From the NCBI RefSeq assembly GCF_014356525.2, contig NC_052507.1, forward strand, positions 47,113,431 to 47,177,430: a stretch of 64,000 nucleotides of DNA, in the 5' to 3' direction. The position numbers and the translations under genes were made by a program. The notes beneath the pieces are model-generated. The model saw nothing but the letters and a program-made list of their open reading frames with translations, was not told the origin of the DNA and ran no database searches. Of this stretch, positions 3,251 to 64,000 are shown in pieces. Positions within the stretch are counted from its first letter, which is position 1, and each line of letters begins with the position of its first letter. The stretch is from Nilaparvata lugens (lineage: Eukaryota; Arthropoda; Insecta; Hemiptera; Delphacidae).

Positions 3251-4578
3251 AGAGGAAAAATAATTTAACAATGTCGCGTATTCGTGCGACCCGGGATAAC
3301 CTAGTAAATGAATAAAATGAATTAAATGAATAAGAAATAATATTTAGTTGATAATCTAAGTTGTTAAATAAATAATCAAATCAATTTTGAGATTGAAAAT
3401 TAAACTATTGTGTTTGTGGAACGATTACACAACACCAATTGGGTTTTGTAGGATATATTATGTGCCAATAAAATAAAATATGTTTTAATATTACTCTCAG
3501 ACTACACGTACATTGATTAAAACATTCTTGAGACTGTTTTATTGTCAGCTCGATCAAGTTGGACTAACAATAGCGTTCATGATGGAGCAATAATAATGTA
3601 AACCCTACAAACCAATTCTTAAAACAATTTAATTAACTTTGTTGCATGATTTTCATTCTCCAGTACAGAAGAAGGATCAGGGACATGTTTTCAGAACGAA
3701 TTTGTGAGCCTACTCTTTATCTTAAGGACAGCGATAATGTCAACAACCCGAGGGAGGCACAAGGGGCGTACTTATCGCTCATTTTCAGCCCAGATGTTCC
3801 ATGTGTGTCGTTTTCTTATCATTAAAGTTCTTTTTCAGAAGAGTGTTCTATACTGTATAACCAACAGAAAAACAAGTGTGAAGAGAGAATATTCAGCTTT
3901 ATCGGGTTTTGAACAAGTTTCAGATAAGAACAATGTGTTTGTTGAAGTTTACGATTCACTCAATGAGTGAGGAGATACTAATTTTCACAATCAATAAAAC
4001 CTGTGAAGTCGAGGATGTTAAGTCAATCCATAAATGCTTGGAAGATTTGAAGAGGAGTATCAATGAATAAATGGGAAGAGTTACAATTTCAACTACTACA
4101 ACTACTAACTTCAACCTTTAAGGGATAGCATATTGTCCTGCTGCATTGATTTTATCTCATTTACTGATTTTTATTTCCAATGATTATACTTTGTTAATTA
4201 TTGTAGGCTATATTCAATCTAATATAAATTCTTCTAATTCCTATTGTTCTATAGTTACACTCTTACCAATATATTACTTTCTTTAATATTCAATTGTACA
4301 AATAGTACATTCACAGATGAAAATTCCTGTACGGTACACAATAAATATATCACAGAAAATATATAATAGTTAAAACGATGAATTTTGATACATATTCAAA
4401 ATTATTAAAAAGAGAATTAGCTAGGTCTCATTGAAGGAAACTAGAAGCATTGTCATCAACTGCAAATTATCAATTGAATGAAATAAGATAAGACAGACTT
4501 TAGATACTGTGGTTATTGGCAATGGTACAAAATTGAATACATTTTTCAACCATTTAAAAAAATCATAATTAAGAATTT
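3251..4578. other. Unassigned AT-rich stretch
   Basis: No long gene. Two short stretches look possibly coding on the plus strand: a MAM-like block at 3706-3825 and a 35-codon frame from an ATG at 3963 to a stop at 4068-4070. I recognise nothing in the rest. Family A LTR similarity begins at about 4579. Confidence 0.5.
3706..3825 (+). pseudogene. Possible MAM-domain exon fragment
   Basis: Thirty-nine codons ending in TAA read 'YLKDSDNVNNPREAQGAYLS', then 'IFSPDVPCVSFSYH'. MAM domains (extracellular adhesion modules) carry a segment of the form 'YL..DSS.PR..G..A.L.SP.....CLSFWYHM', which this resembles in order and spacing. The first half of the domain and the following 'G' are missing, and no splice sites convince me. 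It could be a decayed host exon carried between elements, or chance. The resemblance is my reading; family membership is inference. Confidence 0.3.
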
Positions 4579-5649
4579 GAGGTTAGGTTCACTTGTAACC
4601 GTGCCTATCGGCAACATCAACGGCGGTCAAGCCGGATACATAAAATTCTACCAGGCACTTTCGAGTAGAATATCTGTATGTGTACACTATTCATTAAAAC
4701 AAGGACAAAAAACGTTTGAAGAAACATGAAAATATTATTGTAAAAACTAGAGGATATTGTAAAAACCATAGAACAGAATAATTAAAAATCGTAATAAAAA
4801 TAGGGGGAAATAAGATATAGTTTAATGGGTGCAGTAATACTAAAATACATTTGTACAAGAAAATATAAAACCACCAATCAAAGTATAGTATTTGATGGGC
4901 GCTAAAAGTATATAATTCGAAAAGCCACCACGTGGGATTTCTCAAAGTATTAAATATTTATGTTATAATCTGTAAATCATGAACACAATTATGACTTGCA
5001 TGTGAGAGTCACCAAATGTGAGAAATATTTGTTTATTCTAAAGTAGTCTATCTTCATATTACGAACTATTTACTGGGGCCTAATTACGTCATACGGTTTT
5101 GGTGAAATCCATCAATCAGGAGAAACATTCAAATGACATGTAAATTAGGAATAAGGAAGTGTCGTCGAAAAAGAAAAAAGAATAACAGTCACTTGCTTGC
5201 CAGAGATCACGAGAGACACCAACCAAAGATGAGAGAGGTGGACTGAACCCTTGTTATAATATTATTTATGCCAAGTTTGAATTTGAATTTTATTATTAAT
5301 CAATAGCTACAACTCAGTGAAGTCTTTGTATGACAGGAGTTGCTAATTTGAAATAATCCCCATCGAAGAAGATGGCAGCGACCTACCAAACTAATAAGGC
5401 GATGGACACATGAGGCGAAAAACACGTTTCAACTTTAGACACGAACTATCGTCACAGTGAGTTTTCTCGTCTAAATGGTATTCACTACGTCGAATTTCTG
5501 GAAATAATAAAGCTAGCTTGTCAAAAGTTATGTTCAGAAATCGAGCTTGATTAATAACTATTTGCGCATTTAATTGAAATAAGGGAAAGTCTTATTAAGA
5601 ACTTGAATATGAGAATTAAGGAATTAAGTAGCTAAAGAACTATTATATA
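4579..5649 (+). repeat. Family A gypsy LTR fragment, left part (split by the mariner-like insertion)
   Basis: From 'gaggttaggtt' onward this follows the LTRs at 22194 and 37060: same order of blocks, including 'tgagagtc/ggtcacc' segments near 5200 and the 'actcagtgaagtc' and 'agaacttga' blocks near 5310 and 5600. The first roughly 200 bases of a full LTR are missing. The copy is interrupted at 5650 and resumes at 17514. Confidence 0.75.
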
Positions 5650-5811
5650 CAGAGTATCCCACCAAGGTTGTAACAGCCGTTAACCATATATTCTTCACAA
5701 CATTTCTGACAAAAAATGTTCAGTAAACTTTTTTCCTATCGCCCTTAGTTTTCGAGATATATCGATTTTTCAATATTTTCAGAATATGCGCCCACTTCCA
5801 GTCATTAAATA
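5650..5811 (+). repeat. Left terminal inverted repeat of the mariner-like element, outer part
   Basis: Inverted match to 17352-17513, sharing blocks such as 'agtaaacttttttcctatc' and 'gttttcgagatatatcgat'. The similarity stops at 'cattaaata', where the LINE 3' end begins, and resumes at 15893. Confidence 0.85.
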
Positions 5812-6081
5812 ATAAATAAATGAATAATGAAATAATAAATAAATGTTTATTTCCCAAAAAACTAAAACTACAACATCAATTACACAAAATATTAGATAAA
5901 TTACAATATTACATACAATAGTTAGTTACAAAAAGTTCTTATAATGTGTCCTCTACTTGTTTAGTTTTTTCTGTGTGGAAATTGACCTACTCCACTATGG
6001 CATACCATGTTCTAGAGTAGGTTTTGTTAGTTTTTTTGAGCGTATTATTAATTAGTTAGTGTTTAGTAAGTCATTAGGTGG

Positions 6082-7852
6082 TTAGCTGTTTGGAATAATT
6101 TCTTCTATGTTCTGTCTTCCTTTGCTCATCAACCAATTGTGTACTATTGTTTTGAATTTTCTAGGATGATTAATCTGTTTGAAGTTTGCAGGAAGTAGAT
6201 TATATAATTTTGGTGCTAAATGATTGAAATTCCTCTGGTATAGTGCCTTCCTTGCAACACTGGTGATGAGAAGATTCCTGTATCTGGTGTTGTGGTTGTG
6301 GTTTCTGGTTTGAAATGTTGTTGGGTTCTTGTGTAATCTGCATAGCATCTCCTTGGAGTAAAGCTGTCTTGGATCCATCACGTCAAACTCATTGAATAGC
6401 TGGTCTGATGAATAGCGTGGAGGCTTCTGGTTGATGACCGTAATGACCAGCTTCTGTACCCTGAGGAGCGGTTCAATGTGCAAGAAGCTTGCACCTCCCC
6501 ATCCCACAATCCCATACAGCATGAGGGACTGTGCTAGAGAGAAGTAGATAACTCTTAGACATCCTTTGTCGACCAGTGTCCTCAGAATCCTGAATCTGCA
6601 GATAGTCTTCCTCAGTCTCCCGCATAATTCATTGAAATGATGAACCCAGCACAGAAAAGAGTCCATTGTAAATCCCAGGTATTTCTGTGACTGTTTCTTG
6701 TGAACTGTGTATGAAGTGTTATTCCGTTGATTCTTGATTACTATCTCATTTCCTGTTGCCTGTCCATGTTGAGTCGCCGAAATGATCAGAAAGAAGGTTT
6801 TCTCATTATCCAGTGTTAGCAGATTTTCACTCAACCAGCGAGACACCCTCTGAATTCCAGTCTCCACTTCTCTCCAGGTCATCCCCCAGGTCGGTTCAGA
6901 AAACAGTAGAACAGTATCATCTGCAAAGGTGATGATTGATCCATTAATTTCCATGTTGCATAATAGATTTATGTAGAGAAGAAAAATAATTGGTCCTAGT
7001 ACTGTTCCTTGTGGCACTCCAAACTTTACAGTCAGCTTGTTGCTTATCCATTGACTCCGACACATTGTGTTCGGTTTGACAGGTAGAACTTGAAAAGATT
7101 CCATGCAACTTCTCTTATTCCATAGTTATCAAGCCTTGAAAGAAGAATGTCATGTGACACCGTATCAAAAGCCTTTTTTAAATCTAAGAATACTGCTAAT
7201 GGTTTCTCTTCAGTGTTTATTTTATCGGCAATCTGAGTGGTCACATAGTGGATAGCATCATTTGTACTGCGACTAGATCTGAAAACATATTGGTTTAGCG
7301 ATAGAAGATTATTTTTTTCAAGAAATCTGATCAGTCTTGTTTTGATACACTTTTCAGAAATTTTTGATAATGTACTGAGTAATGATATGGGTCTGTAGCA
7401 ATTCATATCTTTCTTATATCTTGTTTTGAAGATTGGACAAAGGACAGCTTCCTTAAGACTCTGTGGAAAAACACCTTCCTCAAAAATTCTGTTTGCAATA
7501 TGTGTTAAAGGCTTGGCAAGAATAGTATTATTGTGTTTGAAAAAATCTGGTTTTAAATTATCGAGTCCTGGTGCACTATTAGTTTTTAGACTATTGATGA
7601 TTTTCATCATTTCGTCCTCACTGACAGGTGTAAAGAATAATGACCAGAAAACTATCTGATCAGCTGCCACATGCTCATCTGCGCCATTACAATCACTATA
7701 TAGAATGTCCTGGGCCAGTTTTGATCCAATACTAATAAAAAATTCATTGAAAGAATTTGACATATCTTTGTCATCATCTCCCAATTTCAACTCTCTCCCT
7801 TCCAAGTTGATTTGGTGGATTTGTGTTCTTGGCCGTTGCACTTCAGTTATTT
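6082..7852 (-). pseudogene. LINE ORF2 reverse transcriptase and C-terminus
   Basis: Two overlapping frames cover it: one down to 7044 and one from 7104 to a stop at 6082, so there is a frameshift near 7044-7104. Motifs in order: 'LKTNSAPGLDNLKPDF', 'CYRPISLLSTLSKISEK', 'FRSSRSTNDAI', 'AVFLDLKKAFDTVSHDIL', 'GVPQGTVLGPIIFLLYIN' and the catalytic 'FADDTVLLF' (Asp codons at 6916-6921). A thumb region and a C-terminal 'RYRNLLITSVARKALYQRN' block follow. Catalytic residues are kept, so the break is recent or mild. The frame above 7852 continues across the BEL/Pao insertion in the linker at 9719. Confidence 0.9.
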
Positions 7853-7857
7853 CTCTC
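7853..7857 (+). repeat. Target-site duplication CTCTC, left copy (BEL/Pao insertion)
   Basis: CTCTC lies just before the LTR start TGGT at 7858. The same five bases follow the other LTR end ACCA at 9719-9723. Five bases is usual for BEL/Pao elements. Confidence 0.9.
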
Positions 7858-8302
7858 TGGTAATCCCGTCCTGTCCCCAAACCTATGGATTGGGGTACAG
7901 TTAAGATTCAATTCACAAAAACGTCGACAGCCCCAAAAGTAAGTCTTTAATTTGCACTAACCTTGGAACTGGTGAGGAAGTGGACTGTATCTCGTGTGTA
8001 GAAGTTACTGCTGACGATATCCTGTCTTTATGCGTAGGCCTATATGATATTGTACATATATCACAAAACGAAACTAGGTAATTGCGTTCAGCTCGAACGC
8101 CACGGAACAGGAGAAATGAAATGAAAACGATGTTGACTTCTCGAGCACGTTTCTTGAAGTGCTGGTTTGAAAGATAAACGGGGAGGATGAAGGAGGGGTG
8201 AGGGAGAGAGGTTATCTTGCCTCTTTGGGAGAGGGGGAAGGGGAGGAAAGCACAAACTAATCAACCCACAATCAAGGCTGCCGATCCTCTGTGAATCCAC
8301 CA
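7858..8302 (-). repeat. BEL/Pao LTR (3' LTR of the deleted copy)
   Basis: 445 bases starting TGGT and ending ACCA, matching 29421-29856 and 35117-35553. The plus-strand bases just right of it (8303-8316) are pyrimidine-rich, which on the element's strand gives a purine-rich tract suited to priming plus-strand synthesis. Confidence 0.9.
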
Positions 8303-8468
8303 TCTCCGCCCGCCTAGGAATGCCCCATTTCCAAGAACATAAACTAACAAAAACTAAAATTTTAAAGTAAAAGAAAAACAAAACAACAAGCACTGAACGG
8401 TAGGAAAGGAAAAACTAAGGGAAAAAGTAATAGGAAAGGAAAACGGAAAACTTGGTGTGTGGGTTAAA

Positions 8469-9292
8469 CTAATAGGGAAGTATGTGGGCAAGTTTCCTAA
8501 CTGGCCTAACATACTCACCAGAGTTAGTTTTCACGTGAGCTGAGCGCACAACACCCTTAGCATCACTTATGATTTGGGTGACTCTACCTAACGGGTATGA
8601 TAAGGGTGATGAATTGTCCTCTTTAATCCATACTAACTGCCCTACCTGAAGGTTTGTGTCACTCTCAAACCACTTATTCTTCTGTTGAAGAGTGTGGAGG
8701 TATTCACTCTCCCACCTCTTCCACAATCTCTGAGTGAAGCGATTAACCTTTTCCCAACGAGACAGTCTGTGCTCGTTGACATCACTCACATCAATTTCAG
8801 GAACCGCCAACAGAGGGCGATGAACAAGGAAATGTCCGGGAGTCAGCGCCTCGTAGTCATCAGGAGATGAAGAGAGTGCATACAACGGTCTCGAATTGAG
8901 TATCGCCTCAATTTTCACCAACAGAGTGGAAAGCTCAACAATGGTTAGGACCGAATTTCCCACATCACGAAACAAATGGAATTTCACATTTTTAATATCA
9001 GTCGCGCAGCACCTTTGAAATTCGTCCCTTGATTACAGAATATTTCTTTAGGCGATCCACGCCTAGAAACAAAACGATGGAGAGTGTTAATAAACTCTTC
9101 GGATGAAAGACTTGTAAGCACCTCAATGTGACAAGCTTTTGTTGCCAGACAGACAAACAGTGCAAAGTATGCCTTGTACGTACGAGCTTTGGGCCGAATA
9201 CTCTCTTTGACAGTGAAAGGACCAGCTAGATCGACTGCAGCCTTCAGAAAGGGAATACTGGGAACAACACGAGAGCTGGGAAGATCACCCAT
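8469..9292 (-). pseudogene. BEL/Pao integrase, core and C-terminal DUF5641-like region (fragment)
   Basis: Two frames: 9292-8984 with the core start ('PFLKAAVDLAGPF', 'LATKACHIEVL', 'CNQGTNFKGA'), then 8987-8469 with 'ILNSRPLYALSSSPDD', 'LTPGHFLVHRP', 'WKRWESEYLHTLQQ' and 'VGQLVWIKEDN'. Integrase inserts the cDNA into host DNA. Compared with the copy at 30022-31250, about 130 bases around the glutamate of the catalytic triad are deleted at 8984-8990. In the first block 'CNQGTN' stands where 'CDNGTN'-type sequence with the second Asp is usual. It is therefore catalytically dead. Confidence 0.88.
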
Positions 9293-9718
9293 CCAAACCT
9301 ATGGATTGGGGTACAGTTAAGATTTAATTCACGAAAATGTCGACAGCCCCAAAAGTAGGTCTTTAATTTGCACTTACCTTGGAACTGGCGAGGAAGTGGA
9401 CTGTATCTCGTGTGTAGAAGTTACTGCTGACGATATCCTGTCTTTATGCGTAGGCCTATATGATATAGTACATATATCACGAAACGAAACGAGGTAATTG
9501 CATTCAGCTCGAACGCCACAGAAACAGGAGAAACAGAACGAAACGATGTTGACTTCTCGAGCACGCTTCTTGAAGTGCTGGTTTGAAAGATAAACGTGGA
9601 GGATTAAGGAGGGGTGAGGGAGAGAGGTTATCTTGCCTCTTTGGGAGAGGGGGAAGGGTAGAAAAGCACAAACTAATCAACCCACAATCAAGGCTGCCGA
9701 TCCTCCGTGAATCCACCA
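9293..9718 (-). repeat. BEL/Pao LTR (5' LTR of the deleted copy, truncated at its internal edge)
   Basis: It follows the 7858-8302 LTR from 'ccaaacctatggattgggg' to 'aatccacca', but the first 20 or so plus-strand bases are missing where it is fused to integrase sequence. The outer end ACCA at 9715-9718 is intact and is followed by CTCTC. Confidence 0.88.
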
Positions 9719-10249
9719 CTCTCATTACTTCCCATGTTTGCTTAGAGTTGCTGGAGGTTTCAAATCGCCTTGAAAAGTATTGTTTCTTCGCATTTTCTAT
9801 TACAGTTGTTAGTAGATTTCTGTACCTTCTATAATACTCTCTAAGCTGTAGATTCGCTGTATTATTCTTGCTCTGTCTGTGTAATTTATCTCTCTTCCTT
9901 ATTGATGTTATTAATCCATTCGTAATCCAAGGCTCAATTTTTCTTTTTGTGTGCGATACTCTATCAATAACGTTACATTCTTCTGTGTATTTCTTCAGTA
10001 TTTCTATAATTCTCTTCAAAGCACTATCAGCGCATTCCTGCAGGTACACGGAATTCCAGGTCTCATTCGTTAGTATTAATGGAAGTTTAATATAATCAAT
10101 ACTTTCATAGTAGGGTTTTCTCCTGTTGTGATTGTGTTCCACCGCATCATATTTAATTCCCAGAATAGTTATTAAATGATCTGAGATAGAATTTGGGAAA
10201 ACTATTGGTATTATATCTTTTTCAAAGCTTATCAGAATAAATGATCTAT
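9719..10249 (-). pseudogene. LINE ORF2 segment between endonuclease and reverse transcriptase
   Basis: It contains the end of the endonuclease ('FPNSISDHLITILGI', holding the Ser-Asp-His motif) and the basic linker ('WITNGLITSIRKRDKLHR', 'YYRRYRNLLTTVIENAKK'), ending in 'SKQTWEVM' at the BEL/Pao insertion. Just after the solo-LTR junction the endonuclease frame reads 'CIDHLF' and then meets a stop, and the segment continues one frame over, so there is one indel near 10235. It belongs between 11928 and 7852 of the same ORF2. Confidence 0.85.
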
Positions 10250-10253
10250 ACAT

Positions 10254-11923
10254 TGTGAGGGTTATACCAATCTCCTGTCGGTGACGGCACTTATCTGAGG
10301 GTTAACTCCTGTTTGGGAAGTACCCTTGTCACACGAAATAGGGAAAAATGTCTAGAGTATACTAGATTATTTTCCTGACAATTAATCAAAGGATCAATTG
10401 TACTATTTTTCTCAAGGTCAAGTAACTCGATGATGGGCTACTATTAGCCTCTGAAATGAATATGATATTAGCAAATAAATAAGCTATAAGCAAGGTCGAA
10501 CACAGGGTCACTAAGGAACAACATGTGATGACAAGTTGCAATTATTAAATTCACTAAATCATATAAGAATATTGTTGGTTCAATAAGTAATAAATGAATT
10601 TGATAATGAAGGGTTAGGCCCATAAACAATATAATTTGAATTTTAAAAAGTTCTTTCAAGTTTATAAATTTATTAAGGATGAAAAAAGTTAATTCGTATG
10701 GCTTTGTTGGTGGGGAGTCCCTTGCGGGAAAGTTCCACCGCCTGAATATATAATTTGAGCCGTCAATGGGCCTTACGACTGTCATACTTCAGCCGGGACC
10801 GACAGTTTAACGTGCCCATCCGATAACACGGGAGTGATCTGGTTAAAAAACTTTTGGTTGTGAGAGGGTTTGAACCCGGAATCTCTATGCTGCTACGCCA
10901 TCCATTAAGGATGAGCATGTAGTGCTTTCACCCAAGGGTTGCCCGACTCAAGTTTGGACAGTGCAACGTCAGAATTTTTACAAACGATATACCAGTTTGT
11001 CTATGGAAAAAATGAGTCGAAGAGATTTTGAAATAATATTGTTATCATAAATCACTCACATAATATGGGCCCATAATATACGCGCACTCACTCATGAAGA
11101 TTTGTTCACTGCATGGCTGGCATCTTTCATCAGGCTGCATGGCATCATATTAGGCTTCATTATTTGGCCCGCGATTTTAATAATTGATAACTCCTTTTTA
11201 ACTGAGACTTGGCAATCAAATTAAATTCTAACGTTACGGGAACTCTACATTAATTGAATTTAGCACTCTTACATAAATTTAACAATGGAACATTTAAAAC
11301 GACAAAAAATAACAAATAGGAGTTACAAACGACTCTCCATTGGAATGCTCAGTTAATCTCTCTCTTCTTCCTTCTTCTCCGAAATTGAGAAGCTAGGTTT
11401 GGGGAAGAAAAGGTCACATGACCAGTAATGACCAATCACTGGTCAGAAAAACAAATCTACCAATAGGATGGCTACAAATGAAGAAATGAGCTCAGGTGTG
11501 CCATATAGAATAAATAAATAATTTTACAAATAAAAACGAGAAAACAAGCAAAACAAATATAGGGGAACAATGAGCAGATTTTTCAGCAGGTCAGAGTGTA
11601 CAATAAACAATATAATAAAATTAAAAATCGAAGCAAGCAGTCAAGAACCAGAAACAGACATGCCGGTTATCAGCTGACTGATAAGGTAGCCAACTCAGTT
11701 TGATTCAAGAAACTAACCCTTATTGTAAACAAACATTATGCTGTTATAGGTTATTCGAAAACCATTTACAACTGTTTGTGAATCTGGATCTTAATAAATG
11801 AATATATAATAGATTTTGTTGTTATTTCAACAGCCAATAAAGGTGGGTAGTGTAATTTTCAGCTTATTATTATAGAAAGTTGCTTATCAAAGCTGTTTGG
11901 CCACCGTGAATCTCACCGTGACA
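10254..11923. mobile_element. Solo LTR of an unidentified LTR retrotransposon
   Basis: A 1,670-base block starts TGTGAGG and ends GTGACA (TGT...ACA, as LTRs do). It is flanked by ACAT at 10250-10253 and 11924-11927, a four-base duplication usual for Ty3/gypsy. It interrupts the LINE endonuclease exactly between its penultimate and last motifs. No long coding frame is present, and no second copy of its ends lies inside, so a solo LTR is the simplest reading. An unusual non-autonomous element is possible. A tRNA-like promoter block lies at 10866-10900. Confidence 0.75.
10866..10900 (-). promoter_or_regulatory. tRNA-like A and B boxes (possible SINE head)
   Basis: On the minus strand TGGCGTAGCAG (10900-10890) fits the box A pattern TRGCNNAGYNG and GGGTTCAAACCC (10877-10866) resembles box B. 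They are only about 23 bases apart, closer than in a normal tRNA gene, and no cloverleaf can be drawn, so it is not a tRNA gene. A SINE remnant inside the solo LTR is possible. Confidence 0.35.
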
Positions 11924-11927
11924 ACAT

Positions 11928-12562
11928 AAAGCGCTATTATTTCCAATACAAGTTGCCTGCTTTATACAATGTAGGAATTCATATTCACTGAGTAGATTAT
12001 CATAGTCTTCCAGTTGCCTGTGCTGATTTGGTTCTTTTGTGTTGATGTTCAAATCTCCTAGGACGATGTGAAAATACTTTCCATTATCATCCAAAATCTG
12101 CCTCAGATCAATGAGAAATTCTGTTAAGTCCACGTGTGATGGAGATCTATATAACGCTGTTATAACAAAAGTATCTTTCCCAATTTTTAAATGCATATTC
12201 AAACAGTTGGCTAGCCTAACTGCAATTTCTTTTATTTCGACAAAATAGTCGGATTTGACATAAATTATTACTCCATCATTCTGTAGAATATTGTTTTCTG
12301 TTTTGTGGCAGGTATAATTATAGATTGATTCCAAGGAAACACCACCAGCAATCCAGCATTCCGTTAAGACTATCACGTCGAAATCCACGTTCAGGTCATC
12401 CAGTTGAATAAGAAATTCTTCAAAATTCTTATTGTAGCTTCTGATGTTGAAATTGATGATTTTCAAGTTGAAAGGTTGGATTGTATTGTTGACATCTTGT
12501 GAATTTGGAATCGAAGAGTCTTCAATGTTTAATAAATCCAAATCCTCCATCAAATCAGCCAT
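11928..12562 (-). pseudogene. LINE ORF2, endonuclease domain (N-terminal part)
   Basis: The start is the ATG at 12562, in the context AAAATGG; the frame is open further up to 12619 without a better start. Motifs: 'LKIINFNIRS' (Asn), 'VLTECWI' (Glu), 'NDGVIIYVK', 'ALYRSPSH', 'LGDLNINT' (Asp, Asn). The frame is cut by the solo LTR at 11927 just before the 'CIDH' motif, which lies across the insertion. The ORF2 start is only about 100 bases from the helicase region's stop. Confidence 0.85.
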
Positions 12563-12663
12563 TTTTGTTTTTGTGTTTATAATTATTTGTGTGCCAATTG
12601 TAGATATCCTTGTCCTCAACTGATTGTATTTTTTGAGTTAATGACAGCATCAGATCCAACTGT

Positions 12664-14350
12664 TTAATATCTGAATGAGTTGGTATGCCTACCAAGTGCT
12701 ACTATTATGTGCTGAATGCTATCGTAAATCTTGAGTGGTTTAGTATTTTTCCTCACTAGGATAACATCTCTAAACGTTAAACCCTGAGCTTCATGTATAG
12801 TTAGTATTGTTAATGAGCCAGCGGGAGCCTTGTTTTTAACAGCTTTCAGTACCATTTGTTTTTCTGATTGCGTGAATGTGAGGATTAAAGTTTGTGGTTG
12901 TAGGTTGTGAGGTTCTCCGTTAGTTATTGTTGGTTCAATTGATCTAATAATTTTATTTGTAGTGCAGATATCATTGTAGTAGTTAGACAATAGACAGCAC
13001 ACATCCATTGGACACCTGTTGGTTACTGATTGGTAGGAATCCGGATCTGCGAAAACAGAAATATTTTTCCAGACTGCTGGTAAACCACTTCTCTCGATGT
13101 AAGATATTTGTTTTGAGTCTCCAACCAGTACTATCTTGTCTGCGCCTGTCAGCTCAGAGACGAATCCCACGAAGCCGGCGTGCATAAGGACAGCTTCATC
13201 GATGAATACGCACTTATATATTTTTGTGGCAGCCATTAATTAGAAACGACGTCACGGTTCTGTAATTTAAACTAATGGTTGAGTTGAAATCATTTCCGTG
13301 TTTCTCCTGTATAGTTGATCTTATTCCTTTGATTGCGGCTCTTGTTTGAGTTAGTATGAGGTCTTCCATTGGTCGATGTTTATCAACAATTAGATGTGTT
13401 TTTCCGCTCCCTGGAACTCCATCAATCCATCTGATTCTTGGTATCTTGCATCGAGATATATCAATTTTCGAAACAGCATACAACAGTTCCTCATGAAGCA
13501 TCACTTGAGTGTCTCGACTAACCATAATATATTTTTCATTGGTTCTAAATCTGCGAGAACTGTTGTCAAATGATACGTAAGCTCCGCCTCCCTCCATACT
13601 GAATCCCATTCTATATTTTGAAGTAGTTGGTAGAAGGAACATTTTCAATCCATTATCGTAAACATTCATGCTCCTCAATTCAATTTCTCTGAAGACCGAC
13701 GATGAAGCATGAAGATTTTCGGTTCAAAGTGTTGAAAGAGCTTCTTTGAGAATATCTGAGTTTATTTTATCATATTGCTGTAAAAGATTTTTTCAATTCA
13801 ATCATGCAATTTAGAAAGTTATGGTGCTTGCTATCTTCTGGTAGATAACCTTTTGGGCATACTTTTTCTTCTGGCCGATCTGGTTCTGGATAATTGAGAA
13901 AATTCATGCTTCCAGTGCCCCTATGATAAAATATATATTTCAAATGATTAGTTGATAAGATAAAACTGAGTAAATCAATTGAGGATAAATTTTCTAGCTG
14001 GCTGAATTCATCTATGCCTACGACAAGTGGATAATTCATTGATGCCCATTCATTTATTTCCAATAGCACTTTTTTAATTTCTTCTAGAGCATTATAATCA
14101 TTTACTGGCAACAAGTAATTCCGAATTAATTGTTTACTGTCAAGCGTGTTGATTGTTTTCAGTAAGATCGCCGAGCATTTGTTTTGTAGACTAATTGGCT
14201 CAAGGCTACACCACTCCTCTAGCGTCAGCGATTTTGACTTTAGTACGTGCGAGAATTCATCTGAGACTCGAATCTTATTTTCTCCTACGTAAGCAAACGC
14301 TAAATTAATATCGGAATATTCACCGTAATTCTGAATTAATGATACTCTAC
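12664..14350 (-). pseudogene. SF1 helicase of an alphavirus-like RNA virus (endogenous viral element) between LINE ORF1 and ORF2
   Basis: About 560 codons in three frames (from about 14345; 13678-13214; 13236-12664), with at least two frameshifts and stops near 13720. It carries the superfamily 1 helicase motifs of plus-strand RNA viruses in order: Walker A 'GVPGSGKTH' (13394-13420), Walker B 'VFIDEA' (about 13190-13207), 'VLVGDSKQISYI' (about 13095-13135), 'TNRCP', 'TIHEAQGLTF' and 'ALGRHT' (about 12680-12705). In the virus this enzyme unwinds RNA during replication. The upstream third (14345-13770) has no motif I can name and would match the region before the helicase in virga- or nege-like replicases. 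The methyltransferase and polymerase are absent. It lies in the same direction as the LINE genes and fills the space between them. Whether it is a passenger or a LINE-acquired gene is open. Confidence 0.8.
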
Positions 14351-14450
14351 TTTGACGTTTGTTTATTTACATGTAGCTTATTTATCTTTTTTAGAGATTT
14401 TTCAATAGTCGACGGCTCTCTTCTATTGCCCGGTCTACATGACAACGATA

Positions 14451-14479
14451 TTAGCGCAAACCTGCCAGGTTTGCGCTAA
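14451..14479. repeat. Perfect 14-base inverted repeat at the LINE ORF1 stop
   Basis: TTAGCGCAAACCTG, one central base, then its exact inverse CAGGTTTGCGCTAA. The ORF1 stop codon (14478-14476) lies inside it. The ORF1 frame after the stop stays open for about 43 codons towards the helicase region. Confidence 0.9.
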
Positions 14480-15764
14480 GTTCGTTCGTTTCCCATAGTT
14501 CGTTCTATCAATAACTTGTTGCAGTGCTCTTCTATACATGGGCATTTTGCGTCATTGGATTTATGATTAGCTGGCTTGTTATTCTTTTCACAATTAACAC
14601 AAGTTGGAATTTCCTTTTCGGAAGGGCAGTTTTTAGAATTATGTCCTATAACTGAACACTGGCACCGGAAGCATCTCTGAGCTACAGTATAGTCGCTGGC
14701 TTTGCAGCATGTAAAGTCGATAAACAGTTTTACCTTGTTAATTATTAGCTTCCTTATTTCAGGATCGCATTCAAACACCCAATGAAGGGTATCTTTATCT
14801 CTTGGGCCTAACTTGAATGATGGGACGCTGCCTTTGACAAAGTCTTCTTGTTTGATTCCAGAGTTATGGAAATTCTTTTCATAAATGATTTCTGACAGCT
14901 CCTCTTCATTTACATCTGATGGGACATCGTACAAGATTATCCTTGGCTTCTTGTTTGCAGGCTCCGTGATTTTTATCCCTCCAATTTGTAAGCTTTCGTT
15001 TGTTAGTATTTTTTTCTTATCATCCAATGTATCCAGAACAATAAGAAGGCCGCCGCCTCGAACATTAACAGTTCCCTTCACTCTTATATTTTCTTTCTTT
15101 GGAATGTTTTCCTTCAGACTTTTCCTTATTTCTTCACTACTCAGCTTCTCATTATAACCTACCAATTCCAATTTTGTTGGTTTTAGAAGAAGTACATGCT
15201 CTTCAGGTTGGATTATTCTTACGTTTCCTATTTTTTCTGCTGTTGATGTCTTCTTTGGTAACTTAATCACTTCAGCAAAACTGGATTTCTGAACTGATTT
15301 CCTGGATTTTTTTATTTAAGCTGACTATTGTTTCTTGTAACTTTGGCGCACCTGAATTGAGATTTTCTGTCAACTGACTGATAGTAATAGCCCTTGTTTC
15401 GATTCCAACGACAGATTCCGTTTTTTCAACTAACATCTCTGAAAATCTATCATAATCTACTCTTAAAAGTCTCTTTCTCTCATTCTCATATACAACTGCA
15501 GCCCATTTTTGAAAATCCAAGAGTTTATTATTATAGTTCCTCAATATCCTTTTTGAATTCATTGGCCATAACTTCACTTATAGTATTCATATTGTTACCT
15601 TTTTGCAGCTCCACCTCCTGGTCCTGTTTCTGCTCCAAAGGGCTGATGGTAACGTTTTGTTGAAACGCCTCTCCTTCTTCTTCCTCCTCCTCTTCTTTGT
15701 ATTCTGGAATCACTCCATAAGGTGGTTTTTTTTTGTGATTGCATTTGTTGAAAAGACACGACAC
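14476..15764 (-). pseudogene. LINE ORF1 (Gag-like, CCHC zinc knuckles)
   Basis: Three frames follow one another: 15764-15531 (acidic run, 'EEEEEEEG'), 15577-15272 (helical region), and 15270-14476. The last is the best conserved, with RRM-like 'VRGGGLLIVLD' and 'RIILYDVPSDVNEEEL' segments. Cysteine clusters follow: 'CFRCQCSVIGHNSKNC' and 'CVNCEKNNKPANHKSNDAKC', the zinc knuckles of Jockey/I-type ORF1 proteins that bind LINE RNA. No ATG opens the first frame; it can be extended upstream to a stop, so the true start is unclear. Two frameshifts (near 15535 and 15271) make it non-functional. Confidence 0.85.
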
Positions 15765-15892
15765 TATAATGTTGATGGTACTACACTATATAGCTGATGT
15801 TAAACTAACACTATTCTATTGACCTACTTTTCACTGCTACTCTACTCACTAATTTAGATGTTTACTGTACGACTGCTCGACTACGACTGTCC

Positions 15893-17256: not shown

Positions 17257-17513
17257 AAAACTACAGAATATCTATCAACACATAAAATTACATTAGTCTT
17301 GTTTGAAATGTTTTTCTCTTTCCAACAATATCCTTGAATTTAAATTCGTACAGTAGTTTTCGAGTTATTGAGTATTTAATGACTGAAAGTAGGCATATTC
17401 TGAAAATATCGGAAAATCGATATATCTCGAAAACTAAGGTTGATAGGAAAAAAGTTTACTAAAAATTTTTTGTTGTAGAAAATCTATGGTCATCGGCTTG
17501 GTGGGACACTCTG
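17163..17513 (-). repeat. Right terminal inverted repeat of the mariner-like element
   Basis: Outer end CTTGGTGGGACACTCTG at 17497-17513, followed by TA. Inverted partner of 5650-5811 plus 15893-16108. Confidence 0.87.
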
Positions 17514-29420: not shown

Positions 29421-29856
29421 TGGTAATCCGTCCTGTCCCCAAACCAATGGATTGGGGTACAGTTAAGATTAATTCAACAAAACGTCGACAGCCCCAAAAG
29501 TAAGTCTTTAATTTGCACTAACCTTGGAACTGGCGAGGAAGTGGACTGTATCGTGTGTAGAAGTTTCTGCTGACGATATCCTGTCTTTATGCGTAGGCCT
29601 ATATGATATTGTACATATATCACGAAACGAACGAGGTAATTGTGTTCAGCTCAAACGCCACGGAACGGAGAAACGGAACGAAACGATTTTGACTTCTCGA
29701 GCACGCTTCTTGAAGTGCTGGGTTGAAAGATAAATGGGGAGGATGTGAAGGGGTGAGGGAGAGAGGTTATCTTGCCTCTTGGGAGAGGGGGAAGGGGAGG
29801 AAAGCACAAACTAATCAACCCACAATCAAGGCTGCCAATCCTCCGTGAATCCACCA
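29421..29856 (-). repeat. BEL/Pao LTR (3' LTR)
   Basis: Starts TGGT, ends ACCA; 436 bases; matches 35117-35553 and 7858-8302 with scattered single-base gaps. Confidence 0.93.
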
Positions 29857-30021
29857 TCTCCGCCCGCCTTGGAATGCCCCATTTCCAAGAACATAAACTG
29901 AAAAAAAACTAAAATTTAAAGTAAAAGAAAAACAAAACAACAAGCACTGAACGGTGGGAAAGGAAAAACGAAGGGAAAAGGAATAGGAAAGGAAAACGGA
30001 AAACTTGGGGTGAGGGTTAAA

Positions 30022-31250
30022 CTAATAGGGAAGTATGGGGGCAAGTTTCCTAACTTGCCTAACATACTCACCAGAGTTAGTTTTCACGTGAGCTGAGTGC
30101 ACAACACCCTAGCATCACTATGATTTGGGGACTCTACCTAACGGGTATGATAAGGGGGATGATTGTCCTTTTAATCCATACTAACTGCCCTACCTGAAGT
30201 TTTGTCACTCTCAAACCACTTACTCTTCTGTTGAAGAGTGTGGAGGTATTCACTCCCACCTCTTCCACAATCTCTGAGTGAAGCGATTAACCTTTTCCAA
30301 CGAGACAGTCTGTGCTCGTTGACATCACTCACATCAATTTCAGGAACCGCCCAACAGAGGGCGATGAACAAGGAAATGTCTGGGAGTCAGCGCCTCGTAG
30401 TCATCAGGAGATGAAGAGAGCGTATAGAATGGTCTCGAATTGAGTATCGCCTCAATTTCCACCAACAGAGTGGAAAGCTCAACAATATAGGACCGAATTC
30501 CCACTTCACGAAACAAATGGAATTTCACATTTTCAATATTAGACTCACAGATTCCATTCATGAAAGGAGCATGTGGAATATTAAAACGAAATTGGATGCT
30601 TTTAGAAGACATCGCATCACAGACGTTGGATTGATTTTCTGATGATCTGAGAAATTCAACAATTTCCTTCAATTGTCACGCAGCACCTTTGAAATTCGTC
30701 CTTGATCACAGAATATTTCTTTAGGCAATCCACGCCTAGAAACAAAATGATGGAGAGTGTTAATAAACTTTTGGATGAAAGACTTGTAAGCACCTCAATG
30801 TGACAAGCTTTGTTGCCAGACAGACAAACAGTGCAAAGTATGCCTTGTACGTACGAGCTTGGGCCGAATACTCTCTTTGACAGTGAAAGGACCAGCTAGA
30901 TCGACCGCAGCCTTCAGAAAGGGAGCACTGGGAACAACACGAGAGCTGGGAAGATCACCCATGACGGGAGCAACAGGAGTTGCATTGAATAAACGGAAAC
31001 GAGTACAATTGAAAATCACATTTCTGATAACACTGTGTGCTCCAACAATCCAAAAATAGCGCTGAATAAGAGCACGCACTATTCTTGGTCCAGCATGAAG
31101 ATGAGGAATATGATAATACTCAATGAGGAGTTTAGTAAAATGACTATCTTTATGTATCAAACAAGGATGCTTGGCTTCATATCCCAAAGCACCATTTACC
31201 AATCTGCCACCAACACGAATCACACCATCACAATCCAAGAATACAGACAA
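30022..31250 (-). pseudogene. BEL/Pao integrase
   Basis: Zinc-binding N-terminus ('HPCLIHKDSHFTKLLIEYYH', 'HLHAGPRIVRALIQRYFWI'), core start ('SAPFLKAAVDLAGPF'), second half of the core with the Glu region ('[20 protein letters not shown]') at 30672-30500, and the C-terminal part ('[17 protein letters not shown]', 'LSRWKRLIASLRDCGRGGSE', 'LHTLQQKSKWFES'). In 'NCTRFRL' only one Cys of the usual Cys-x2-Cys pair remains. Frames change near 30800, 30690 and 30350. Inactive. Confidence 0.88.
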
Positions 31251-35116: not shown

Positions 35117-35553
35117 TGGTCCCGTCCTCCGTCCCCAAAACTTTGGATTGGGTACAGTTAAGATTTTATCACGAAAACATCAACAGCCCCAAAAGTAAGT
35201 CTTAATCTGCACAACCTTGGAACTGGTGAGGAAGTGGACTGTATCTCGTGTGTTGAAGTTACTGCTGACGATATCCTGTCTTTATGCGTAGGCCTTTATG
35301 ATATTGTACATATATCACAAAACAAAACGAGGTAATGCGTTCAGCTCGAACGCCATGGAACAGGAGAAACGGAACAAAACAATGTTGACTTCTAGAGCAC
35401 GCTTCTTGAAGTGCGGGTTGAAAGATAAACGGTGAGGATGAAGGAGGGGTGAGGGAGAGAGGTTATCTTGCCTCTTTGGGAGAGGGGGAAGAGGAGGAAA
35501 GCACAAACTAATCAACCCACAATCAAGGCTGCTGATCCTTCGTGAATCCACCA
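35117..35553 (-). repeat. BEL/Pao LTR (5' LTR)
   Basis: Plus-strand ends TGGTCCCGTCC and AATCCACCA; 437 bases. I could not match the bases just inside it (35116 downward) to a particular tRNA. Confidence 0.92.
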
Positions 35554-44687: not shown

Positions 44688-46550
44688 TGTAATGGTCCCA
44701 TTACAAGGTAGTTGATTTATTTAAAGTTCCCGCTGAAGCCATCTGGTTTTTCTCCCTTTTAACTCTTTGTGGGAAATTTTCTTTAAATTTGTTGCCAGTC
44801 TGCCTTGCCGACTGCTTTGGTTGGTAGTTGAGGTTTCGCTCCAACTAAATTAACCTATCAAATCCTTTGTTTCAACTGTTTTCTTGCCCATCATTTGATT
44901 GGTAAATAAATTCCCTTTTACTGCTTTAATCCAATAAAGTTTGGTTTAACAAAGTTGTAGAGGGCGCTGGCTGTCTCCCTTCCAGGCGTCTAGGAAGCTC
45001 TGCTCCTTGTTTAGGCTTCTGTTTTGGCTTGGGTTTTTGAATTCTAACCAATGTAGCTATGTTGTGTTGTTAAAGAACAGTTTTTCTTTCTTTTAGCATT
45101 TAAATTTTGGCATTTTAACATGCCTAACTCATTTACCTAATTATCTCGTTCACCTAGCTATTAATTTATGTCTCATTTGTGTAAATGCACTTCTTTGCAA
45201 ACGTTTGACGCTTGACCAAGCCAAGCTAACCAAACGCGTCTGTTACTTGTTTATTAAATCCGCAAAAGGTATGTACTAGCATAAGTATTTAATTATTATT
45301 TGTAATAATTATACCAAAATGGGAACATTGATTTCCATAGACTCAAAACAAGTAGTAATAAGAAGTAATAAGGTACTCATAATAAGTAGTAATAAGGTTG
45401 CATCTTCTATGTACGACAGGTTAGATTGTAAGTTTGCTGGTTAGATCGTGTAATTAAGTGATCCTATGGATTCTCTGGACGAGAATAACAAATTTTACTA
45501 CTAGAATAGGAAGTCAGGATGCAGAAATATTACTTTGTTTTCTGTTAAACGTTATTTCATTTAAACATCGATAATTACTTCTGTTCAAAGTGGGGAGAGC
45601 TAATCTCCATAAATTTCAGATGACAATTATTCCAATAGTTATGTTAATAAAGAAATATTATAATTTTGATATTCCACTATTATTTGCCGTAGTACTAGTT
45701 GATTATAATTCAAGAGTGGCCAATACATAGCATGTAGGCTCCATGCTTAAGATAGAAATAACCGAAATGATTGTTATACAGTAGGTTAGGTGCGCAAAGC
45801 ATAGATTTGTTGCATAATTCGAAACTCTTTTTTGAACTCCTTAAAATTATTCCAATTGAAAATATTTGTTTTTGAATTCCTATTGTTAGAGGAGTAGAAA
45901 CTATTGTAGATTGTTTATTATTTTAAGCGGTCCACGACATGGGGATTCACGATCTCGGCGTACTGTCCGACACTCCACGAGCTGGGCGACATTCTGATTC
46001 TGACGTCACGGACGATCTGTTGGACCACGGCTGTACAATGGCATAACCATCTAATTTTGCCGAATGCTGTTGAACTACCAGAGTTTGTTACTCCCAATTG
46101 GAAAGTTCGCCGAATCGAGGTAATACATCTCCAATTTTTCTACCAAACTGGAACAATCGGCGAATAGTGGGGGAAGTTATTCGTTTATCCTTGTCAGGTT
46201 GGGAATATAATAGTTTGTTCTCGATAATGAATTATTGTATTCCTTTCACTGTCCGTGTTGAGTCGGAAATGATCGAGCAGTGTATTTGAGGAACACTTGA
46301 CCGCAACACTACTGGGGTGATGTTAGATGAACGAATTGGACTGCAACCTAATCAGAGATTCACGGATTTGTATTTGAATCTTAGGTAATCCAAGTATCCC
46401 TTGAATAGTAATTTCTTTTATCTTTTATTTTTGAACTTGCATTAATTCTTTTTTGGATATTGAGTAATACTTGGGTGGACTTGCTTATTATCTGTTTTGA
46501 ATTATTTTCCTTATATTCAAGATCAATGTTGATCTTTTGGGGATTTCAGT
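44688..46550 (+). repeat. Family C LTR (first copy, right boundary estimated)
   Basis: The left end TGTAATGGTCCCATTACA is itself an 8-base inverted repeat with a two-base centre. AATAAA signals at about 44907 and 44933 suit polyadenylation. The right end is uncertain: I found no convincing tRNA primer site. I place it by divergence, since eight of the base differences between units fall between 45050 and 46520 and few fall beyond. Direct repeats of 'agtaataag' lie at 45350-45405. Confidence 0.5.
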
Positions 46551-47465
46551 TACGTACTGGGTATCCTTGGATCGCCTAGATTCTTTCCTTTTGAGATTGT
46601 CATTTTCAGGTTTTGAAACTTATTAAGTAGTGGTCAACGACTGTTGAAAATCATGTATTGCCTTGTTCATAATAATTTTTTTTTAATATATTGGTAATTT
46701 ATCCACCAAATGAGCGTCAGTGAATTTTAGATTGATTAGACCCCTTTCCCTAGGTTAGAAGTGGTCGGGCTGGATTCTTTCAAGTGATGAATCAATAACA
46801 CTGTTCACACAAACATTTCTTAAGTGTGACAGTAAGCTGCGCCGCACTCTGCTATTTTGGTAACTATACCAAATTTCCAAATTCTATATTTTTCAGACAT
46901 ATCTTTTCAATATCCATATTTCCAAATTTATTACTTAATATATTTGATTGATTCATTGCTTGCCAAGCATGACAGCTTGACCGCCAGTCTGACCTGAGGA
47001 ATGTGGTTTGATTGTCGATCAATCACAGGTTAGGGTATTGTAGTCAGGTGTGGATAAATTTAAATTTCTGAGAGTGGAAATAATTTAATGCATCCATATT
47101 ATCTTCATTTAGAGTATTGAGATAGACAATCATCATTGGTTATTTAGTATTGAAGATGCTTAGCATGGAAATGTTAATAATATTGACAGTACTGTTAGTT
47201 AATGTGCCTTACAAGATCTAAAAATTTAAGATAGAATCTTATACATGATAATTTTACTTTGTCTAATTTTGTACAATGTTGCATACCTTTTGTTGGATTC
47301 TGAGTTGAGTTTGAAGTATGAATTGAATTCAAGGTATGAAGTGACTTTGAATTTGAACTTTAAAGACTTGGTCTTAAAACACAACGATTTTGAAATTTTC
47401 TATTTGCCATTAATATTTTTATTTTATTTTCAATTTTTTGTACTAGCTTGCTCTAGCTTGACAAG

Positions 47466-49220
47466 ATGGAAACCAGCATCCCAAATATGTCCGGACAACC
47501 CTCAGATACCACCCGGGAAGTAAGGGATCAGACTGTTCAGGGAACAGAATCCACAGAGTCCCCATCAAGTATGTTTTGGGAAGTAAAACATGAGATAGAG
47601 GAGAAAATAGCTTCAGGTGGGGGAATGAGAGGTTGGTTAGCTCGAGCTATTAACCCTAATCATTTAGTAAAGTTTCAGATTCATTTTGAACTTAGAACCA
47701 TGGGAATCCCCGGGGAGGAAATTGAACCTATGAGTGTAGATGATCTACGTAAGAAGTATAGAGAGGTGCGAAAAGAGCATGGGGAGGGGGAAAGACAGTT
47801 ACATAGGTATAATCACTCTGACGACTCTGCCAAGTCTGAATTAAGTCAAATAGACAATATTATAGGATGGATAGAGGGCTGGTGTGCTAGTTTAAGTGGG
47901 GACATGGAGGCCGAGAATAGGAAGGAGGTTTTCCTCAAAAGTATGTCCAATGTGTCCCACTGCACAAATAGAATTATCCACTTGTTGACATTTGCCCGTT
48001 TTGAAAAGAAAGAGAGCTTGCTTTCAGATTTGGATCAACGTATAGAAAAAATACTAGTGATAGTTACATCATTGTCAAATTGGCAACCTGGACCTCCTAG
48101 CCGCGGAGCTTCACCAGTGCCGTATTCAACAGCCATGTCATCTCCAACGGTTCCTGAGGCTTCTGCAACTACTACTACTTTAGTGCTGCCTCCAACACAA
48201 AATTTGCAGAAAGTAGGCAGACCTGAAGTTTATATTCCTGTTGAGCCAGTTGGTCGTGCTCCTCTCAGGACAAATAATCCAAGGTTGACCTTGAACATTC
48301 CGCCTGCAGGTGCACATCAATTCATGCCAGTGCAACCTAGTCAATTCAACTTTAATCCAGCAATTTCCACAGGTGTCCCTCGTTTAGACCCAAGTGCATC
48401 TTCACCTTTTGGAAGTTTGTACAACAAATTACAGAATCCAGTTGAGTCTTTATTGAAAGAGTTACCTGTCACTGATGGATTGACAGTTGAGACTTTATTG
48501 AAATTCTTGGGAGTGGCATTGAAAATTAGAAGCCAATTTGGTGTAAGTAATTTGCATTTATTTCAGCTGTTGCAACCTTTTGCGGTAGGGCCTTTAGGGG
48601 AACGTTTGAATTTTGCAATCAATTCAAACATCAGTTTTGACCAATTTCACAAAGGTATTTTACAATATTTCATTCCTCAACGCTTGTTATCGGCCATTGA
48701 GAGAGAACGTTTTTATCGTTTACAGAGCTCACAGGAACCACTTTGCAGTTACATTGTTTCGATCAGGGAAGCTGCAAGTTTGCTCAGAATCAACTTATCT
48801 GAGACAGAAATAGTCCACACAATTTGTTCAGGCTTGAATCCTGCGGAAAGATCTCGTCTTATTTTCCAGGAAAGACCAACCACATTTCAAGCTTTAAATG
48901 AGATGAGTGTATTATCACAGAACCTGAGTTTTGCTGACAATGAGCGAGCCTATGTGGAGAGTTCGAGAATCGGTAGCGTCAGGCAGACCTCTACGGCTTA
49001 TGGACACCGGGATAGGACCTGCTATGAATGTGGAAAGAGAGGTCACATTGCTATGAACTGTAGGTCAAAATCGGCACAACAACACGCTGGTACCTCCAAC
49101 AATAAGCCTGATGTCAAGCAGCCTGGACCAAGCGCAGTTGGTGGAAGTGGAAAGGTAACTTGTTTTAATTGTAAGAAGGTAGGTCACTTTGCACGTGACT
49201 GTACATCAAAGAGGTCCTGA
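47466..49220 (+). CDS. gag: Gag polyprotein (family C, unit 1)
   Basis: 584 codons from an ATG in good context (gacaagATGg). Residues 1-30 are Ser/Thr-rich; 60-130 are charged and helical. A Pro-rich stretch (about 200-320) precedes the capsid region (about 330-490), with 'LFQLLQPFAVGPLGERLNFA' and 'YFIPQRLLSAIERERFYRLQ', typical of retrotransposon Gag. Two CCHC zinc knuckles end it: 'CYECGKRGHIAMNC' (519-532) and 'CFNCKKVGHFARDC' (566-579), for binding the element RNA. It ends at UGA 49218-49220, and the frame goes on open into Pol. The protein is identical to that of unit 2. Confidence 0.95.
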   Translation: METSIPNMSGQPSDTTREVRDQTVQGTESTESPSSMFWEVKHEIEEKIASGGGMRGWLARAINPNHLVKFQIHFELRTMGIPGEEIEPMSVDDLRKKYREVRKEHGEGERQLHRYNHSDDSAKSELSQIDNIIGWIEGWCASLSGDMEAENRKEVFLKSMSNVSHCTNRIIHLLTFARFEKKESLLSDLDQRIEKILVIVTSLSNWQPGPPSRGASPVPYSTAMSSPTVPEASATTTTLVLPPTQNLQKVGRPEVYIPVEPVGRAPLRTNNPRLTLNIPPAGAHQFMPVQPSQFNFNPAISTGVPRLDPSASSPFGSLYNKLQNPVESLLKELPVTDGLTVETLLKFLGVALKIRSQFGVSNLHLFQLLQPFAVGPLGERLNFAINSNISFDQFHKGILQYFIPQRLLSAIERERFYRLQSSQEPLCSYIVSIREAASLLRINLSETEIVHTICSGLNPAERSRLIFQERPTTFQALNEMSVLSQNLSFADNERAYVESSRIGSVRQTSTAYGHRDRTCYECGKRGHIAMNCRSKSAQQHAGTSNNKPDVKQPGPSAVGGSGKVTCFNCKKVGHFARDCTSKRS

Positions 49221-49224
49221 CTAG
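49218..49224 (+). promoter_or_regulatory. Readthrough-type stop UGA-CUAG between Gag and Pol (unit 1)
   Basis: TGACTAG: the Gag stop is followed by CTAG. UGA-CUA(G) is an established context for efficient stop-codon readthrough in animals and RNA viruses. Upstream (Gag) and downstream (Pol) codons are in the same frame with no other stop. I see no clear stem-loop downstream. Use of readthrough is inference. Confidence 0.75.
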
Positions 49225-58852: not shown

Positions 58853-58856
58853 CTAG
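58850..58856 (+). promoter_or_regulatory. Readthrough-type stop UGA-CUAG between Gag and Pol (unit 2)
   Basis: TGACTAG, identical to the site at 49218-49224, again with the same frame open on both sides. Confidence 0.75.
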
Positions 58857-63953: not shown

Positions 63954-64000
63954 TGTAATGGTCCCATTACAAGGTAGTTGATTTATTTAAAGTTCCCGCT
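63954..64000 (+). repeat. Family C LTR (third copy, cut by the window end)
   Basis: TGTAATGGTCCCATTACAAGG and the next bases match 44688 and 54323. It closes unit 2; whether a third unit or the family A integrase follows cannot be seen. Confidence 0.93.

Follow-up and report, generated by a model that had tools for sequence, protein, structure and literature searches.

A tobamovirus-like helicase forms a separate middle open reading frame in a LINE family of the brown planthopper

We analyzed a stretch of 64,000 nucleotides (nt) from the brown planthopper Nilaparvata lugens (contig NC_052507.1, positions 47,113,431 to 47,177,430; hereafter "the window"), in which a superfamily 1 (SF1) helicase of the tobamovirus type lies between the two usual open reading frames (ORFs) of a long interspersed nuclear element (LINE). 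The gag-like ORF1, the helicase and ORF2, which encodes an endonuclease and a reverse transcriptase (EN-RT), are all found on the reverse strand, an arrangement given in the preliminary description of this DNA and confirmed here by Pfam, by comparison with the tomato mosaic virus (ToMV) helicase and by the flanking ORFs. The best overall explanation, which we regard as very probable, is a three-ORF LINE that has kept a viral helicase. In this reading the window holds a dead copy of a recently active element, and its subfamily (A) descends from a D-like ORF1-helicase cassette joined to an E-like ORF2.

The features of the window copy are presented in Table 1. Its three segments are 94.2, 95.5 and 95.1% identical at the DNA level to those of the intact copy L012, and its 5' end is the one common to other copies. 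Pieces of ORF1 from 15731 to 14492 match the ORF1 of L012 and the related protein P0009 with 84-90% identity; frame changes interrupt them, and a stretch of the knuckle region is missing. No Pfam family was found for the window ORF1 piece or for the intact ORF1. In tblastn searches the helicase of L012 matched the window in five pieces with 89-96% identity, and the related protein P0001, also in five pieces, with 62-91% identity. The helicase had been described as filling the gap between the LINE ORFs with 100-130 bases of slack on each side. It is present there, but in pieces that sit in different frames, and the slack is a result of decay, since intact relatives place the helicase ATG at 14496 and its stop at 12557-12555, over the ORF2 ATG at 12562. 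The stop at 14476 that had been taken as the end of ORF1 is not ancestral, as the window copy is scrambled just there; the proposed ORF2 ATG was correct, but two later inserts (11923-10254 and 9718-7857) interrupt the ORF2 that it opens.

A palindrome (88% over 43 bases, 14444-14486) is located at the decayed ORF1/helicase junction and does not occur in L012, the sole copy compared there. The long terminal repeat (LTR) element that cuts ORF2 has partial further copies at window positions 29421-30962 and 35120-35553, with 91-96% identity. The LINE copy itself sits within a repeat, an uninterrupted relative of which is found near 17330-17480, and the three-ORF unit was therefore inserted together. 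No clear target-site duplication was observed at the window copy.

Table 1. Features of the helicase-bearing LINE copy in the window (positions counted from the first base of the window).
Feature	Position	Strand	Basis or detail
Whole LINE copy, subfamily A	5816..15887	-	Segments 15887-11924, 10253-9719, 7856-5816
ORF1, gag-like, with CCHC knuckles	14492..15744	-	Matches to P0009 and L012 ORF1, in pieces
Remnant of the 14-nt ORF1/helicase overlap	14492..14496	-	Comparison with L012, L030, L032, L021
Decayed helicase ORF region (ATG and stop placed by intact relatives)	12555..14496	-	tblastn
N-terminal domain of the helicase protein	13923..14351 (approximate limits)	-	Predicted fold (weak); homology to P0014 and P0015
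Tobamovirus-type helicase: own N-terminal domain and SF1 core	12600..13866 (approximate limits)	-	
Walker A motif GVPGSGKT	13397..13420	-	Sequence; GVPG.GK invariant in alignment
Motif II VFIDEA	13192..13209	-	Sequence and alignment
8-nt helicase/ORF2 overlap ATGGCTGA	12555..12562	-	
ORF2, endonuclease and reverse transcriptase	6085..12562	-	Pieces 12562-11924, 10238-9714, 7856-6085; tblastn of L012 ORF2; Pfam RVT_1
Later insert in ORF2, about 1.67 kb	10254..11923	.	Gap between LINE blocks
Later insert, partial LTR element	7857..9718	-	Two LTR copies (about 7877-8306 and 9293-9723); integrase and DUF5641 pieces
LINE 3' end with TTTA-rich tail	5816..5878	-	

The Pfam family Viral_helicase1 was matched by the window piece 13236-12664 (E 3.7e-25) and weakly by the Walker A piece 13678-13214 (E 2.3e-4). 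Whereas the window copy holds broken pieces only, the helicases of the intact copies L012 and L032 are full-length, covering positions 3-228 of the 228 of this family. The nearest solved chain by sequence is the ToMV helicase (3.7e-22), and the planthopper protein agrees with the tobamovirus/virga type both in sequence and in fold.

When the helicase piece was compared with the planthopper genome itself, at least 150 scored matches were obtained from 857 candidates, and in 37 of the 150 listed the frame stays open for 640 amino acids (aa) or more. Excluding the window's own, subfamily A accounts for 58 matches at 91-97% identity to the window, of which 44 are close to full length; one more match is 88% identical. 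Among the matches listed, 10 at 71-78% identity represent subfamily D; subfamilies B (about 71 matches, 58-59%) and C (nine matches, 55%) are more distant, and both of these counts are lower bounds. For locus-level comparison 25 loci were picked from the helicase matches. ORF1, helicase and endonuclease follow each other in that order on one strand in 19 of them, so that the search for further LINEs of this layout, proposed in the preliminary description, was successful; in one of the 19 (L026) ORF1 is represented by 39 residues only. In the stretches examined, ORF1 was not found for L023, L024, L025, L027, L028 (D) and L033 (C), nor the endonuclease for L025.

Intact copies are three-ORF elements of about 6.5 kb with a helicase ORF of 644-648 aa, as in L012 (ORF1 436 aa, helicase 648 aa from the ATG in the overlap, ORF2 981 aa) and L032 (ORF1 430 aa, helicase 645 aa, ORF2 1009 aa, or 1007 aa from the third ATG). 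Copies of subfamily A share their 5' end and are up to 99.75% identical over 6.5 kb at different places in the genome. The ORF1 relatives P0010 and P0011, annotated as N. lugens proteins, are 100% identical to the ORF1 of L029-L031 and of L032, respectively. ORF2 of L012, L031 and L032 matched RVT_1 in all three cases. Endonuclease families were also matched by all three, but only L032 exceeded the curated cut-off; in the L012 ORF2 Pfam detected no RNase H at E 0.01. The helicase, present in all five subfamilies (A-E), is copied and inserted with the LINE as one unit. The many copies, shared junctions and 5' end, intact ORFs and purifying selection (see below) support the second alternative of the preliminary description, in which the helicase was gained by a LINE family and multiplied along with it.

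Additionally, four intact helicase proteins of 638-652 aa (P0003-P0006), 47-56% identical to the window piece, were found in metagenome or Logan contigs, and given these proteins other organisms may carry the element. No relatives were found in IMG/VR or in the bacterial and archaeal genomes searched.

The junctions between the ORFs are conserved. In intact A, B and C copies, ORF1 and the helicase are separate ORFs in different frames, rather than a single ORF with a gag-like part and a helicase, and overlap by 14 nt. The helicase ATG lies within the end of ORF1, at ATGGGATTGCTTAA in A, ATGGAAGTGCTTAA in B and ATGGGATTGTTTAA in C, where TAA ends ORF1; the decayed D copy L021 has letters identical to those of C. 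In all of A, B, C, D and E the helicase ORF is located directly upstream of ORF2 and overlaps it. The helicase stop extends over the ORF2 start by 8 nt, with ATGGCTGA in A, ATGAGTAA in B and C (assuming for C the third of three ATGs as ORF2 start) and ATGAATAA in D, and the overlap is likewise 8 nt in the group E copy L035. Both overlaps recur in subfamilies with only about half of their helicase residues in common. Such overlapping stop and start codons suggest that the downstream ORFs are most likely translated by termination and re-initiation. For one N. lugens contig an overlap of 2 nt, unlike the 8 nt observed here, has been given (PMC5563155).

Two variants of the helicase/ORF2 junction were also seen. 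In L039 (group E; reverse complement 4142-4372 and 4456-5901) the ORF2 start is doubled, and in L040, a 5'-truncated A copy (reverse complement 4164-5399), the helicase tail and ORF2 share one frame that is open for 1122 aa.

Relatives without a helicase were sought at 11 places. Group E comprises nine places at 52-56% endonuclease identity, six of which were examined, having been chosen without a listed helicase nearby. Most of the helicase was nevertheless present in four of these (L034, L035, L038 and L039); L037 retains just the final 78 residues of it, and the 5' truncation of L036 lies immediately upstream of ORF2. Five A-type places with an endonuclease but no helicase listed (L040-L044) were all 5'-truncated, four of them within the helicase: three (L040, L041 and L042) keep its last 140-153 residues and L044 its last 43, with the contig ending soon after. 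No helicase residues were found in L043, and no ORF1 match in any of these five. ORF1 joined directly to ORF2 was thus observed in none of the 11 places examined, and helicase-less kin may exist among the remaining endonuclease matches.

Selection was measured by Nei-Gojobori counts. Between subfamilies A and D, the ratio of non-synonymous to synonymous substitutions (dN/dS) in the helicase is 0.173 and 0.194 for the N-terminal piece and 0.081-0.092 for the C-terminal piece, values that are biased upward by the decay of the D copies. This comparison of silent and replacement changes, suggested in the preliminary description, shows together with the open frames kept at about 50% identity that the helicase is under purifying selection; the conclusion is drawn mainly from these two lines of evidence. 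Within subfamily A, dN/dS is 0.20-0.54 for the helicase (15 pairs of six intact copies), 0.11-0.48 for ORF1 (6 pairs) and 0.26 for ORF2 (one pair).

Protein identities and trees show subfamily A to be a chimera of two LINE lineages with the changeover near the 8-nt overlap. In the D loci the helicase is closest to A in eight of eight cases and ORF1 in all three with an ORF1 match, whereas their ORF2 is nearer to B and/or C than to A (overlapping matches counted twice). Conversely, group E is near A in ORF2, with 53-56% identity over the first part and 72 and 74% in two reverse transcriptase pieces (one short stretch of L036 reaches only 41%), but its helicase is no nearer to A than to B or C. 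In trees built from unbroken pieces, the C-terminal part of the helicase (10 rows) places A with D (99/99) and groups A, B, C and D (95/92) apart from E and three outside proteins, while the endonuclease (8 rows) separates A and E together (100/100) from B, C and D. As these splits are mutually exclusive, A combines a D-like ORF1-helicase part with an E-like ORF2. The proportion of synonymous differences (pS) between A and D, 0.66 in the helicase against 0.80 in ORF2, agrees with this for the helicase.

Several points weigh against the explanation preferred here. ORF1 has an A-D pS of 0.81 and is saturated, so that its part in the chimera rests on protein identity, and a recent common origin of the cassette on the helicase pS and protein identity. 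Among A, B and C synonymous sites are saturated, which leaves only the ratio of the proportions of differences (pN/pS), 0.42-0.46 for the helicase, 0.32-0.42 for ORF1 and 0.34-0.50 for ORF2. Selecting the A copies by their open frames biases dN/dS to low values. Pairs of D helicases give 0.18-0.54 in the C-terminal piece but 0.92 (one pair) in the N-terminal one, as expected of decay, and in the comparison of B with C the helicase (51%) is less conserved than ORF2 (57%). Moreover, support for the predicted fold of the N-terminal domain is weak, the function of the helicase is a prediction, and the putative Jockey label of the LINE is taken over from PMC5563155.

As for the proteins, the element RNA would encode the gag-like ORF1 protein, a helicase protein of about 645 aa and the EN-RT protein of ORF2. 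The middle protein would consist of an N-terminal domain, predicted to be macrodomain-like by a weak fold match, and a complete virga/tobamovirus-type SF1 helicase of RNA-virus origin. The N-terminal domain has a homologue in the "spacer" that precedes the helicase in P0014 and P0015, which we take from their domain order to be LINE proteins of the TRAS type; hhalign gave probabilities of 91 and 94% and scores of 48 and 52, whereas 100 column shuffles gave no score above 16.5. This spacer has been reported as matching nothing. In its predicted fold the domain is also similar to the first piece of BFVD A0A1L3KJX8, a viral protein (E 2.7e-5). The second piece of this protein is a helicase match, so that the domain may be viral too; against this, no match to it was found before the helicase of Atrato virga-like virus 2, the only virus compared.

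These results bear on the proposal of Morozov et al. (2017) that the helicases of Jockey-type and TRAS-type LINEs were captured independently from different viruses, which we consider somewhat probable. The two form separate branches in the published tree (PMC5563155). They do so here as well: 13 rows of a 16-row helicase tree, namely five from the N. lugens LINE and eight related proteins (P0001-P0008, seen as proteins only, P0008 being a long branch), stand apart (95/92) from one virus and two TRAS-type rows. However, with only one virus row this tree fits one capture as well as two, and both LINE types share the N-terminal domain in the same order, a domain not detected in the one virus compared. 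The shared domain favours a common source, either related viruses or transfer from LINE to LINE. That a replicase block of the macrodomain-like domain and the complete helicase entered insect LINEs just once, and then moved between Jockey-type and TRAS-type clades and between ORF2 lineages, is nevertheless rather doubtful; for movement between LINEs, this scenario draws on the D/E chimera in subfamily A, which points to movement between ORF2 lineages. If true, ORF1 and helicase would together form an accessory module that LINEs can exchange.

The helicase would most likely act as an ATP-driven RNA helicase of the element, serving its ribonucleoprotein (RNP) or blocking RNA silencing. In the latter case, a tentative possibility, it would bind or unwind small or double-stranded RNA and shield the element from control by small interfering and PIWI-interacting RNAs. 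Suppression of silencing has been described for tobamovirus helicases, and the helicase of a TRAS LINE was able to complement the movement of a suppressor-deficient plant virus, a result that its authors call not unequivocal (PMC5563155, PMC4686597). A ToMV-like fold alone is no proof for the planthopper protein. Equally tentative is a role as retrotransposition co-factor, in which the helicase would remodel the element RNA or RNP before reverse transcription, or clear RNA and protein from the template during it. Its position between the RNP protein and the reverse transcriptase protein, with overlaps that suggest coupled translation, is in line with this. Between subfamilies the helicase is about as conserved as ORF1 (47-51% and 45-52% in blastp) and more so than ORF2 for A against B or C (ORF2 40-43%), but for B against C it is ORF2 that is better conserved, and LINEs without such a gene are the rule. 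It is improbable that interference with related viruses, to the benefit of the host, is what maintains the helicase, as proposed in PMC5563155 and PMC6338049, since the helicase is conserved across copies of a mobile family, including young ones that are 99.7% identical, and not at one fixed host locus.

Finally, the preliminary description had allowed that template switching placed a viral RNA in this LINE. Such a one-off event in this copy, with no role for the inserted sequence, has a negligible probability: the window copy is indeed broken and of viral ancestry, but the same junctions and intact helicases occur at many loci in five subfamilies under purifying selection, and a single passenger endogenous viral element was rejected because other LINE copies carry the helicase.

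Elsewhere in the window, a direct duplication of about 9.4 kb (45001-54369 and 54636-64000, 99.8% identity) was observed, which is either a tandem duplication or an assembly artefact. Each duplicate holds an open gag (584 aa) and pol (1087 aa), presumably Ty3-like. An apparent second, different LINE, judged by eye, is located at 87-2810 on the reverse strand, with an endonuclease-like ORF (464-1399) and an ORF1 of the coiled-coil type (1947-2810).

Among viral proteins, the ToMV helicase (3vkw) is 27% identical to that of the LINE in the alignment, the LINE protein carrying an additional domain at its N-terminus. The best fold match among viral proteins is that of Atrato virga-like virus 1. 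The helicase of Atrato virga-like virus 2 is 38% identical, with an alignment extending upstream of the core; there it is part of a replicase with a methyltransferase and an RNA-dependent RNA polymerase, whereas the LINE keeps the helicase and the preceding domain.

As for LINEs, the element is not the new kind of retrotransposon that had been considered possible. TRAS LINEs of Lepidoptera with a C-terminal SF1 helicase were described in 2015 (Lazareva et al., PMC4686597), and Jockey-like LINEs with a helicase ORF beside ORF2 in Hemiptera and Orthoptera in 2017 (Morozov, Lazareva and Solovyev, PMC5563155), the 2017 study reporting dozens of N. lugens sequences as well as transcripts and considering what roles the helicase might have. 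Roles of LINE helicases are also discussed in PMC6338049, which cites Kondo et al. (2017) and Geisler (2018) as extending the finding. Among open-licence PubMed Central titles, helicase-bearing LINEs were found only from Morozov, Lazareva and co-workers. A helicase-bearing LINE is thus already known in kind and species.

The selection measures on the helicase are an addition of the present analysis. Here a viral enzyme that looks functional has been retained by a retrotransposon despite deep divergence, within a compact arrangement of three ORFs that overlap, and the young, 99.7% identical copies within one insect are a convenient place to test its role in silencing escape or reverse transcription. 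With the TRAS LINEs the element shares a virga-like SF1 helicase and the N-terminal domain (P0014, P0015), which calls into question the published view of two independent captures; there, however, the helicase is found at the C-terminus of ORF2, behind RNase H in P0014 and P0015, and here it is a free-standing ORF before ORF2. The Jockey-like LINEs of PMC5563155 are closest, being from the same species and having an SF1 helicase ORF before and overlapping the EN-RT ORF2. The accessible text of that paper places the helicase "in ORF1" and does not mention that an N-terminal domain is shared or that the element is chimeric. What is apparently new is therefore the separate middle ORF behind a gag-like ORF1 with conserved 14-nt and 8-nt overlaps, the homology of the N-terminal domain to the TRAS spacer and the chimeric make-up of the window's subfamily.
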